Assembly: GCA_003598085.1 (NCBI GenBank)
Contig: QZKU01000005.1
Coordinates: forward strand, 1 to 16,839
Direction of reading: 5' to 3'
Length of the DNA: 16,839 bases
From: Candidatus Abyssobacteria bacterium SURF_5
GTDB taxonomy: Bacteria > Abyssobacteria > SURF-5
Positions 7,014-16,706 of this stretch are shown here, piece after piece. The notes below the pieces were generated by a model. It had not been told where the DNA came from. It ran no database searches and saw only the letters and a list, made by a program, of their open reading frames with translations. The stretch's first letter is position 1. Every line of letters starts with the position of its first letter. A program made the position numbers and the translations under genes.

Positions 7014-7325
7014 TCACGCCGTCTCTTGGCGCTTTGCAGTCTGGACTTTTAGTTTCAAGCGCAACGCTCGGATTACTTTTAGGACGGTGGCAAATTCAGG
7101 ATTGCCCTCCGGAGAAAGAGCCTTATAAAGACTTTCCCTTCCCAGTCCAGTCTCACGCGCAATCTCTGCCATGCCTTTGGCGCGAGCTATATCGCCCAAA
7201 ACAGCAGAGATTAAAGAGGGGTCTCCCTCCTCTAACGCAGCCTCAAGATAGGCAGCCATATCTTCTTCGGTTTTAAGATTCTCCACTACGTCCCATGGAC
7301 GAGTTATTGTCTTCTTGCGTTTCAT
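7014..7325 (-). CDS. Antitoxin of a RelE/HigB-type module (helix-turn-helix)
   Basis: A 103-residue protein matching the addiction-module antidote family with an Xre-like helix-turn-helix. The N-terminal half has the family's Asp-Val-Val-Glu-Asn-Leu-Lys-Thr-Glu-Glu-Asp-Met-Ala-Ala-Tyr-Leu stretch. The DNA-binding part reads GMAEIARETGLGRESLYKAL and is followed by G-N-P-E-F-A-T-V-L-K-V-I-R-A-L. The family antitoxin binds its partner toxin and represses the shared promoter. The start at 7325 is chosen because TCCT (7331-7334 on the plus strand, AGGA on the minus) sits 5 nt upstream of ATG. It lies downstream of the broken toxin with a 106-nt gap, unusually wide for this toxin-first arrangement. 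It appears intact and could still act as an orphan repressor. Confidence 0.85.
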   Translation of the reverse strand: MKRKKTITRPWDVVENLKTEEDMAAYLEAALEEGDPSLISAVLGDIARAKGMAEIARETGLGRESLYKALSPEGNPEFATVLKVIRALRLKLKVQTAKRQETA

Positions 7326-7329
7326 GTTA

Positions 7330-7362
7330 GTCCTGTCTCCTGTCACTTGTCTCTTGTCTCTT
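7330..7362 (-). repeat. Heptanucleotide tandem repeat carrying the antitoxin ribosome binding site
   Basis: On the plus strand, four consecutive 7-mers, GTCTCCT, GTCACTT, GTCTCTT and GTCTCTT (7335-7362), follow a partial unit GTCCT (7330-7334). The antitoxin Shine-Dalgarno (AGGA) is the last partial unit on the minus strand. Confidence 0.6.
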
Positions 7363-7431
7363 GAGTAACCTTTCTCCCGCACCTTGCCGCCACGAGGAGT
7401 GCGGCCCGGCCGGGAGACCGGTAAAATCTAC

Positions 7432-7723
7432 TTACAAATTCCGCGCCAGTTCCCGCGCAATGAGAATATCTCTACCTTGCGTGCGCTTGTCTCCGCCCGC
7501 GAGCAGAATCACCACTTCACGTCCTCGATGAGTAAAATACACGCGATAACCAGCAGCGTAGTCAATGCGCAGTTCGGAAACGCCCTCGCCGACCGGTTTG
7601 ACATCTCCCGGATTCCCCCAGCGATAAACGTCGAATACGCGTATTGATACGGGCGCGGACCTCCTTGTCTCGCAGGGAATCGAACCATTGCGCGAATTCG
7701 TCTGTCTGGCGCACTTCAATCAC
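7432..7723 (-). pseudogene. RelE-family addiction-module toxin, frameshifted
   Basis: Two overlapping frames together make one complete toxin of the addiction-module killer family (HigB/RelE type, mRNA interferase). The first gives a stretch with TDEFAQWFDSLRD and ARINTRIRRL. The second continues with GNPGDVKPVGEGVSELRI, GYRVYFTHRG, LLAGGDKRTQ and a final ARELARNL. The frames join exactly at a run of five C on the plus strand (7615-7619, G on the coding strand); the family sequence needs four. The gene therefore has one extra base, either a real inactivating insertion or a sequencing error. The GTG at 7723 begins the conserved part; an earlier GTG at 7774 would lie upstream of the predicted -35. 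The antitoxin follows downstream. Confidence 0.8.
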
Positions 7724-14076: not shown

Positions 14077-14853
14077 ATGGGTCACGAGAGAGTCGGAAGA
14101 TTGCCGAAGTCTCAGTGTTGGCGCAATATAGTTGATACTATCGCCGCGTCAGCATATTCTGCTGAGCCTCTCACGGCTACTCTTGCAGCCAAGACGATCG
14201 AAAATGTTAAACATCGCTTTTTCGCTATTCATAAGGATAAAGGGGTCCAAGCCGCTTTTGCCTACCTGATCTCTCTTGCTACTGACCATCTTCCGGAAAC
14301 AGAAGGTTTGGCTTCGCCTGAGACTCGACTAAACGAAAATCCCTCCCCAATAAGGCTGGCGAAGCAACTGAATGAATGGGTAAGGAAACACGCAAGTTCG
14401 AACGAATACGCGGAAATCGCCTGTCGAGCAGGCGCTGACAGTATAGCTGAATGGACAAAAGCAAGTAGTCGTCAGAGGAGCCTATTTGACGACAGCATGG
14501 ATGCCAAGACCGTTTGGTCGAAGTCCGCTAGTGCAAGAGGCTTCTGCGAGGTAGCACGGACTTTCTTTGCTAGTTTTACAGAACGTTATCTACGTTATTT
14601 TCTGGAGCGCGAAGCATCCGCGACTTTGCCTTCGCTGAAGGCTCGCGAAGAGTTTTCGAAAAACCTTCACACACACATAGATAGTGTTTCAAAACATGCT
14701 TTTGAGACTTCCAAGATCACCCAATCGTTCGCAGCTGGGTGGTTCAATAATCATGCCCTAAAATCACGACCATCCGATAGAGAGATCGAAGGCTTCCTTG
14801 CGATTGCATTTGGCAAGATCCAAGAGGAAATGCAGAGAGAATCGACGAAATGA
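14077..14853 (+). CDS. Helical partner protein of the QueC-like gene
   Basis: A 258-residue, probably cytoplasmic and mostly alpha-helical protein without a recognised catalytic motif. It opens with MGHERVGRLPKSQCWRNIV, which looks like a conserved N-terminal signature. The middle has DKGVQAAFAYLISLA, and the C-terminal half has FFASFTERYLRYFLERE and ITQSFAAGWFNNHA. The stop TGA overlaps the next gene's ATG (ATGA at 14850-14853), so the two are translationally coupled and their products likely act together. By position it corresponds to QatB in qatABCD systems, the gene before the QueC-like qatC. I cannot show homology to QatB, whose N-terminus I remember as different. No signal peptide or membrane segment is seen. 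Function unknown; the gene call itself is strong. Confidence 0.85.
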   Translation: MGHERVGRLPKSQCWRNIVDTIAASAYSAEPLTATLAAKTIENVKHRFFAIHKDKGVQAAFAYLISLATDHLPETEGLASPETRLNENPSPIRLAKQLNEWVRKHASSNEYAEIACRAGADSIAEWTKASSRQRSLFDDSMDAKTVWSKSASARGFCEVARTFFASFTERYLRYFLEREASATLPSLKAREEFSKNLHTHIDSVSKHAFETSKITQSFAAGWFNNHALKSRPSDREIEGFLAIAFGKIQEEMQRESTK

Positions 14854-16706
14854 CTGCAAGAGCGGGCCGACATATTATTCTTGGGAATGGAGCAGAAGGC
14901 CCAGAGAATGTAGTCAATCCGTTTGTGCTTAATTATCTGGACGGTCGAGGGCCCGTTAACGTTCGTATAGGACTGCAGCGCTTAGTGCGTTCAGTCTATC
15001 ATCTACCTCCGCGCATTTTAGATTTGCTGGAAATCGCCGGTTACGTTTTTGCCGCTGACCGCAGCATCTCTAGGGGACGCAATGATTTGGTGGAGTATCA
15101 TTCATGGTCCCGTTCCATCGAATTCCATATTCGCGTTAGAGACTGTGAGTTCTGGTCGCAACATCTCGTGACAGAACGTCTTCGGGAAGTTTTGAAGTTC
15201 ATGACCGGTGATGCGGAATTTTCTTTTCACTTTCAACCTGGCCATTCCACTGAGCCTACAAGCTTGTTTGACCTTCCCGAATGCCGTATAGAGCCAAAAG
15301 CTGGTGAACCAAATGTATGTCTCTTCTCCGGTGGCATTGATTCTCTTTGCGGAGCGCTTGATCTACTCGCACACGAGGACAAGGAGGTAATCCTAGTGAG
15401 TCATCAGTCGCAACCCGGGACTGTGCGAACACAGAAGAGCCTTGTGGATGCGCTCGACCGACTTTATCCCCGTAGAGTTGCACATTTCAAGTTTGAGTGT
15501 ACTCTAAAGGGAGCTCGCGCAGATGAAGAGACACAGAGAAGCCGCTCGTTCTTATATACAAGCGTGGCTTATGCTATAGCTTGGGCCTACGGACAGAAAC
15601 GTATTAATGTTTTCGAGAACGGCGTTACAAGCATAAACCTAAGGCGAAGAGAGGATCTGGCAAACGCCCGCGCAAGCAGGACCACCCATCCTCAGACAAT
15701 GGCTCGGATGGCCACGCTCCTTTCCTTAATCGATGGACAACCATTTGAAATCGCTCTTCCTTATCTCTTCTCGACAAAAACGGATGTCATTCGAAAGCTC
15801 GCGTCGGTTGCCGAAGATTTGCTTGCAAGTTCTGTATCCTGCAGCCGTACTGTTAAAAAAAGAGACACAACACACTGCGGTCACTGCTTTCAATGTATCG
15901 ACCGAAGGATCGCATCGTACGCAGCGGAAGCTGAGACAATAGACCATCGGGGTTTGTATATGACAGATATAGTATCAGATCACATTGACGATCGAGAAGC
16001 GAGAAACATTATGATCGATTATATTCGTCAAGCGAAATCGTTTTCAGAAGATTCTGCAGACAAATTCTACGAGGAATATCTTAGTGACCTAGCCGAATGT
16101 CTCGATTACCTGCCCTTAGATTGCCTGGACCAAGAAAAGGTCTGTCGAATATGGGATCTCTTCAGAAAACACGGAAACCAGGTTCGGGACGGCCTAAACA
16201 GAATCAGAGCGCTTCATGAGGATGTGTTCGAATCCCTGCCTGAACATTCCCTTCTCCATCTCATCTCTCTCCGTGAATACCTGAAGCCAGAGGTTGAAAG
16301 GCTCGTAGCAACTATCTGCAAGACATTGCAATCACCGATAGCGGAAATGTTCGCTCGACATCGTCCTGTTGACGAACCAGATTTGAATGAAAAGCTAGGG
16401 GCATTCCTCCGAAGTCACGAACCAAAAATCCGAAGCGAACATCCCAACGTATCGTTTGCCTGCGCTAGAGTCATTCCAGATCATGGTTCCATAGAGGTAG
16501 ACTTATTAATAGAAGCAAAATATATAAGAGGCAACACCTCTCCATCAAAGGCAACAGAGGGTATAGCTGCTGATCTTACGAAGTACCCTGATCAGGCTTA
16601 CATTCTTTTCATTGTTTACGATCCAGAACATAAAATTCTGGACGACAATGCTTTTTGCAAAGACATTCGAGCGAAAAGGCCGAGTAGAGTATTGATAATT
16701 CGATAA
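14850..16706 (+). CDS. QatC/QueC-like PP-loop protein fused to a PD-(D/E)XK nuclease-like domain
   Basis: A 618-residue protein with four parts. Residues about 1-150 resemble the N-terminal region of QatC-type proteins, with ILDLLEIAGYVFAADRSISR, a W-x-R segment, FW and FMTGD. Residues about 150-370 are a QueC-like ATP-pyrophosphatase domain: PP-loop FSGGIDSL with Ser160-Ser165, and a zinc site C331-x11-C343-x2-C346-x2-C349 in the HCGHCFQCIDRR context. Residues about 380-520 are helical. Residues about 525-618 look like a PD-(D/E)XK nuclease of the DpnII/MboI-associated type: Pro543-Asp544, then EVDLLIEAKYIR with Glu555 and Lys557, followed by DLTKY and ILFIVYDP. QueC makes 7-cyano-7-deazaguanine; QatC is its relative in anti-phage Qat systems. 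The nuclease fusion suggests a self-contained effector. The gene is complete; further operon members may lie beyond the window. Confidence 0.88.
   Translation: MTARAGRHIILGNGAEGPENVVNPFVLNYLDGRGPVNVRIGLQRLVRSVYHLPPRILDLLEIAGYVFAADRSISRGRNDLVEYHSWSRSIEFHIRVRDCEFWSQHLVTERLREVLKFMTGDAEFSFHFQPGHSTEPTSLFDLPECRIEPKAGEPNVCLFSGGIDSLCGALDLLAHEDKEVILVSHQSQPGTVRTQKSLVDALDRLYPRRVAHFKFECTLKGARADEETQRSRSFLYTSVAYAIAWAYGQKRINVFENGVTSINLRRREDLANARASRTTHPQTMARMATLLSLIDGQPFEIALPYLFSTKTDVIRKLASVAEDLLASSVSCSRTVKKRDTTHCGHCFQCIDRRIASYAAEAETIDHRGLYMTDIVSDHIDDREARNIMIDYIRQAKSFSEDSADKFYEEYLSDLAECLDYLPLDCLDQEKVCRIWDLFRKHGNQVRDGLNRIRALHEDVFESLPEHSLLHLISLREYLKPEVERLVATICKTLQSPIAEMFARHRPVDEPDLNEKLGAFLRSHEPKIRSEHPNVSFACARVIPDHGSIEVDLLIEAKYIRGNTSPSKATEGIAADLTKYPDQAYILFIVYDPEHKILDDNAFCKDIRAKRPSRVLIIR

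Follow-up and report, generated by a model that had tools for sequence, protein, structure and literature searches.

A QatC-like protein carrying a PD-(D/E)XK-type domain and its QatB-fold partner: a candidate two-gene relative of the Qat defense system

Results

The B–C gene pair

The window, that is, the whole stretch of DNA analyzed here, is a complete contig of 16,839 b within the 5.1-Mb genome of Candidatus Abyssobacteria bacterium SURF_5. Near one end of it lie two genes, B and C, which overlap by 4 bases, ATGA (Table 1); the DNA visible 3′ of gene C amounts to 133 b, where the contig ends. Gene C has an ATG start and a reading frame open across 618 codons, and its PP-loop and four cysteines fall where an earlier note on this DNA had placed them. 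A queD-queE-queC operon of the host's own lies on another contig (C34), indicating that gene C is not the housekeeping QueC. Elsewhere in the window (7014–7719, minus strand) is a gene pair for a Gp49/HigB-like toxin and an HI1420-type antidote, a common type II toxin-antitoxin module.

Table 1. Coordinates of the B–C gene pair and of its features in the window
Feature	Position	Strand	Description
Gene B	14077..14853	+	258-aa QatB-fold partner, all-helical; tail M-G-H-E-R-V-G-R-L-P-K-x3-W
B N-terminal tail, codons 1-15	14077..14121	+	Putative acceptor Gly2 after Met removal; conserved residues
Gene C	14850..16706	+	618 aa; QatC-like part and C-terminal nuclease domain; start lies within the final codons of B
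QatC-like part of C, residues 6-476	14865..16277	+	N-terminal extension, PP-loop core, Zn site, helical extension; fold match
PP-loop SGGIDS, residues 160-165	15327..15344	+	SGG and DS invariant in family and QatC
S276-R-T-T-H-P281	15675..15692	+	Counterpart of QatC substrate-site motif T278-R-T280-T-H-P; Ser for first Thr
Cys4 zinc site C331...C343-G-H-C346-F-Q-C349	15840..15896	+	All four Cys invariant in family and QatC
PD-(D/E)XK (DpnII-MboI type) domain, residues 502-618	16353..16703	+	E509, P543-D544, E555-x-K557, Y590-D591-P592

The QatC-like part of C

C is a QatC-type PP-loop ATPase with a Cys4 site. It matches the QatC profiles of PADLOC (1.1e-55) and NCBIfam (1.9e-60; 204.8 bits, below the 280-bit equivalog cut-off) as well as the QatC sequence in the PDB (1.5e-32). 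The Pfam QueC family is matched at 2.6e-6, above gathering; the NCBIfam QueC model (TIGR00364) scores 16.6 bits, below its cut-off of 150.3, and the canonical QueC motifs YxQxHxxE, VPxRN, and YPDC are absent from the sequence. The best fold match of a structure model of C (13 sequences, pLDDT 80) is QatC chain 9y02_B, with a Z score of 31.6 over 400 residues (rmsd 3.2, 26% identity), compared with 13.6 for Cap9 and 13.5 for QueC. This match spans residues 6–476 and takes in the N- and C-terminal extensions. Profiles and fold alike bear out the earlier assignment of C as a QueC-like protein of the QatC type.

The SGGxDS PP-loop and the Cys4 site (CGxCxxCxxRR) are present in 14/14 full-length members of the C family. 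Together with RxR, ENG, R-T-x-HP, and TK, they are common to the family and 11 QatC sequences, and further QatC-type motifs can be followed through the family (D-x4-R...WxR, RxRxxxF/Y, ENG, HP, P-x4-TK, and a C-terminal Tyr). The Pro of P-x4-TK (Pro304) is replaced by Asn in two of the 14 members, and the spacing from D-x4-R to WxR shows a three-residue insertion. At the substrate site, the second residue, Thr278 (T280 of Pseudomonas aeruginosa QatC), is kept in all 14 members, whereas the first is Ser276 in all 14 and Thr (T278) in 11/11 QatC sequences. Among known substrate residues, this Ser is the only one that differs consistently, and its presence in the whole family counts against the mechanism that we propose below.

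Conceivably, the QueC-like part of C could produce a modified base or small molecule, as dpd DNA modification or preQ0 synthesis does, with the nuclease cleaving DNA that either lacks or carries this product in the manner of restriction-modification. The QueC superfamily fold of C would fit such a scheme, as would the presence of QueD- and QueE-type genes in 13/13 hosts tested. The missing YPDC and VPxRN motifs and the low QueC score speak against it, however, as do the QatB-like nature of the partner of C, the lack of a DNA-inserting transglycosylase gene beside C in the window, and the report that QatC does not replace QueC in Escherichia coli (PMC13329287). We regard this scheme as very improbable. 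The same QueD and QueE counts make a weak case for CDG as the substrate of C, as these genes are common in control genomes too (QueD in 9/14, QueE in 10/14). In the hosts of L023–L026, L029, L031, and L034, QueD/QueE-type genes are found but QueC-family matches are weak (E 1e-6 or worse), and CDG may be made there in the absence of a standard QueC.

The C-terminal domain of C

Judged by its sequence, the C-terminal domain of C is of the PD-(D/E)XK type and belongs to the DpnII-MboI family. Residues 508–609 match the Pfam DpnII-MboI family (PF18742) at 4.7e-9 (36.4 bits, gathering 27), in support of the fusion proposed in the earlier note, and 9/13 family members match it at E 0.01 or better. 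Pro543-Asp544, Glu555-x-Lys557, and Tyr590-Asp591-Pro592 are found as that note had placed them. The note had also made its proposal depend on conservation of the nuclease residues among homologues: E509, D544, H545, E555, K557, D575, K578, Y590, D591, and P592 are invariant in 11/11 nuclease-bearing copies, which share 37–62% identity with the window copy. The predicted order of secondary structure, a-b-b-a-b-a-b (helix 509–522, strands 536–538 and 552–558, helix 565–578, strand 584–590, helix 599–607, and strand 612–617), fits a PD-(D/E)XK core in a model that is weak around D544 (pLDDT <50 at 544–547). No solved nuclease homologue of this domain was found in the PDB by sequence profile. Fold searches with full-length C were dominated by QatC, matched no solved nuclease, and barely probed residues 477–618. 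The domain resembles DpnII-MboI-type nucleases in its family match, its E...PD...ExK residues, and its predicted helix and strand order. Unlike the PF18742 domains of restriction proteins and of the Argonaute-associated helical-REase proteins of PADLOC, it sits on a QatC-type ligase. It would be expected to act as a nuclease on a nucleic-acid target.

The fusion is conserved but not universal. In a tree built from 27 sequences (14 members of the C family and 13 QatC), the C family forms a clade apart from QatC with support of 99/99, and within it the nuclease has been replaced twice, once in L027 and once in the clade of L019, L030, and L032. The nuclease-less members (L019:6780-8447, L027:2950-5034, L030:8780-10519, and L032:2576-4315) have other C-termini; no Pfam family was found for that of L019. 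We considered a nuclease hidden in another frame at these four loci and rejected it, as no nuclease sequence is present in any frame. The replacements suggest that C-terminal effectors are exchangeable on the QatBC core. They also indicate that the core can work without a nuclease, which counts against our proposed mechanism and tempers the view in the earlier note of the nuclease as integral to the effector: the fusion is conserved, but the domain is dispensable in two lineages.

These losses bear on a further possibility, in which the C-terminal domain, although folded like a nuclease, would do no more than bind nucleic acid or act as a scaffold, and defense would come from the modified B–C complex itself. 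Two separate losses have left four family members with C-termini other than the nuclease, and QatBC by itself, without any nuclease, protects against lambda-vir (PMC13279940). The invariance of E509, D544, E555, and K557 at such low overall identity is nevertheless typical of catalysis, and we think a noncutting domain distinctly unlikely.

The partner protein B

The earlier note read C as an effector contained in one polypeptide. It had missed gene B, directly upstream, and C is always accompanied by this QatB-fold partner. B has no match in Pfam or NCBIfam and none that is convincing in PADLOC. Its start follows the consensus MGH[E/K]R..LP[K/R]...W, with M1, G2, H3, R5, L9, P10, and W15 identical in 15/15 B sequences (the phage copy in L018 left aside), and a second conserved block reads HAFET[S/A]KI. 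An AlphaFold2 model of B (15 sequences, pLDDT 77) has ten helices from residue 15 onward and pLDDT <50 at residues 1–6; the tail is thus conserved despite the lack of modeled structure ahead of residue 15.

In a VIA-align comparison, the QatB chains 9y01_A and 9y02_A rank 1–2 of 996 against this model, with a Z score of 10.2 over 182–191 residues (rmsd 4.4 over 191). Helical bundles reach Z scores of up to ~13 by chance against the whole library, above the 10.2 of B, but the QatB match ranks first at about twice the score of the next unrelated chain (Z 5.4). Sequence similarity between B and QatB was detected neither by phmmer against the PDB nor by hhalign profile comparison, and Foldseek gave no significant match for B, with QatB not among the best 50. 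A Z score of 10 alone is no proof of kinship. What makes the match of the modeled fold convincing is the position of B as partner gene to a QatC-like protein, together with its conserved Met-Gly tail. In B, MG is followed by H-E/K-R rather than by TS as in the MGTS of QatB; Gly2, constant in B apart from one phage copy, is invariant in QatB too. The QatB tail has been modeled in the QatC active site, and the G2D substitution abolishes defense (PMC13279940).

Distribution and neighborhoods

A B gene followed by a C gene was found at 17 places: the window, a Leptospira plasmid, two viral contigs, and 13 genome loci. The hosts of the genome loci represent at least five phyla (Planctomycetota, Bacteroidota, Verrucomicrobiota, Omnitrophota, and Ignavibacteriota). 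On the Leptospira noguchii plasmid, the pair lies directly after an IS982 transposase; its B and C are each 47% identical to the window proteins, and they overlap in the same way. The probe that worked was an alignment of B, which found the two viral contigs and the 13 genome loci. C alone found no relatives in a single-protein scan of genome contigs, and alignments of C or of the nuclease had no matches among viral contigs. No further members were found within the phylum (three genomes) or around G246, and a search among 386 distant relatives gave two ordinary QatC matches and no further family members.

B is intact in 12/13 genome loci, the exception being L033, in which both B and C are broken. 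At each locus, a QatC-like gene lies directly 3′ of B; in the phage contig L018 only a remnant of it is left. The C genes of L029 (L029:8783-10647) and L033 (L033:8784-10600) carry single-base indels that disrupt them in the same region but differ between the two loci, and B of L033 is frameshifted as well. A programmed frameshift was considered and rejected because the indels differ and B of L033 is also broken, which leaves sequencing errors or pseudogenes. Two more distant observations may be recorded here. L005 (L005:1147-3119, minus strand) encodes a very divergent QatC-like protein and a short partner starting MSDGPHKSLPMSPSW, with a tail pattern that resembles both QatB and the B family. 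A QatC-like ORF is also present on the unannotated Listeria phage contigs OR848142.1 and OR846725.1 (L013).

Searches by tblastn with five QatA and five QatD sequences found neither qatA nor qatD in the window and 16 loci, whereas the two control loci gave matches; the flanking DNA covered is short in the window (133 b downstream), L023, L027, L028, and L032. The earlier view that the locus differs from four-gene qatABCD therefore stands, as does its expectation of homologues with the same fusion, which are often beside defense genes. Type IIG restriction-modification adjoins L028 and also L019, the latter as read from the upstream ORF; type I restriction-modification adjoins L025, a locus of the cultured species Chitinophaga tropicalis, and, by reading, L030. 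Hachiman HamB lies beside L024 and an HNH effector beside L029. L019 and L030 resemble each other in arrangement: an integrase gene and a primase-like gene lie downstream, those of L030 identified by reading only, much as phage satellites or integrative elements are organized. On the contig with L019 (L042), a terminase-like match contains two in-frame stop codons, suggestive of a decayed prophage or element.

The scattered distribution on mobile elements and the arrangement as two overlapping genes, the small one first, invite comparison with toxin-antitoxin pairs. This is the main rival to a ligation mechanism: C would be a nuclease toxin silenced by bound B, its ligase domain would mainly sense ATP or a metabolite, and loss of or change in B would activate it with no covalent tag. 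A cellular nuclease inherently needs restraint, which such a scheme would supply. The scheme sits poorly, however, with the invariance of the entire PP-loop and zinc active site and of the Gly2 tail of B. Nuclease-less modules keep both, indicating that the conserved activity is not neutralization of a toxin. On this evidence we consider a toxin-antitoxin-like pair unlikely.

A remnant of the module in a phage

L018 is IMG/VR 3300028883_000054 (IMGVR_UViG_3300028883_000054), a tailed-phage contig of 58.9 kb on which terminase, portal, head, and tape-measure genes are present. Within a densely packed region of early type, with genes for a DnaQ-like exonuclease and a DnaC-like loader as neighbors, it carries a B copy and a truncated C copy, B′ and mini-C′ (L018:6001-7106). 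B′ is 54% identical to window B and has Arg in place of Gly2 (MRHERLGILPRRKNW). Directly after it, mini-C′ (110 codons) consists of ~15 N-terminal residues joined in frame to a part that aligns with C residues ~354–445, and it has no PP-loop, zinc site, or nuclease. The C-terminal extension of QatC binds QatB (PMC13279940), and the part retained in mini-C′ is the counterpart of this extension. Relative to L022, differences at the three codon positions are 0.34/0.18/0.58 for B′ and 0.35/0.16/0.59 for mini-C′, a pattern that looks like protein-coding constraint, although much of this divergence may predate the deletion.

The two phage genes could be a decoy that poisons the host B–C complex from both sides. 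Alternatively, they could be a neutral remnant or serve another phage function. We prefer the decoy to these alternatives only tentatively, as a possible reading. Should the decoy prove true, modification of B at Gly2 would be the step that a phage must block, and the QatBC-nuclease module would be a real anti-phage system. The B′ of L018, with its changed acceptor glycine, offers a ready-made test of the modification model.

Discussion

We consider it fairly probable that B and C form a compact immune module of two genes, akin to Qat yet separate from it, in which C tags B and the nuclease in cis is the effector. B would be the substrate protein, with an unstructured tail that opens with an invariant glycine. 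C, as a QatC-type ATP-dependent ligase, would bind B in the way that QatC binds QatB, and the tail would enter the PP-loop active site, where C could ligate a small carboxylate, possibly one of the 7-deazaguanine type, to Gly2. Sensing of infection would be the trigger, and the modified state would license the cis PD-(D/E)XK domain to cut nucleic acid. The nuclease on C would then take the effector role that separate QatA, QatD, or other factors would have in qatABCD. We favor this explanation because of what is observed: the gene pair and its overlap, the predicted folds, the invariant residues, the separate clade, the lack of qatA and qatD, and the defense neighbors at several loci. The module probably serves in anti-virus defense and would protect against phages. 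The earlier note had left the chemistry as base or protein modification; modification of a protein N terminus is the probable form, by analogy with QatBC and Cap9 and with a B tail that looks like a substrate.

The resemblance to QatBC of qatABCD (PDB 9y01/9y02; PMC13279940) extends to the N- and C-terminal extensions of C, the PP-loop, Cys4, RTTHP, and CGxCxxCxxRR, to an adjacent overlapping partner with the QatB fold, and to a Met-Gly tail with a Pro and a Trp. Unlike qatABCD, the B–C loci are without QatA or QatD and have a nuclease fused in cis to C. B is without sequence similarity to QatB, and its tail is ~14 residues long compared with 30–90 and opens with MGHER, not MGTS. C differs from QatC in the Ser at the first substrate-site position and in its separate clade. 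Type IV CBASS with Cap9 and CdnD likewise combines a QueC-fold ligase with a partner, and the N-terminal glycine that is the acceptor in the Cap9 system has a possible counterpart in B. In contrast to type IV CBASS, B is not a CD-NTase but an all-helical protein of the QatB fold, and C has QatC-type extensions and the QatC-type substrate motif. The window contains no CD-NTase gene, and no Cap10-like gene was seen beside C.

Two 2026 papers treat QatC and the QueC superfamily (PMC13279940 and PMC13329287). According to the latter, qatA and qatD lie near only about a third of QatC-cluster genes, so that undescribed forms are to be expected. A word search of the same paper found no nuclease, and the only fusion in it is to GMP-synthase; no mention of a QatC-nuclease fusion or a natural two-gene form was found in PMC13279940. 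A description of a QatC-nuclease fusion was not found in the open papers searched, which do not include bioRxiv or subscription papers. These searches suggest that the two-gene QatBC-like form with a fused nuclease is a variant for which no published description was found.

The structural paper of 2026 (PMC13279940) names two open questions: the way in which QatBC stops phages and the identity of what QatC attaches to QatB. The B–C family is a naturally occurring two-gene form whose likely output, nucleic-acid cleavage, would be hard-wired to the ligase. With such a link, a tag on Gly2 of B and cleavage by C can be sought without QatA or QatD. The B–C module may thus serve as a stripped-down version of Qat in which Qat's open questions can be tested.
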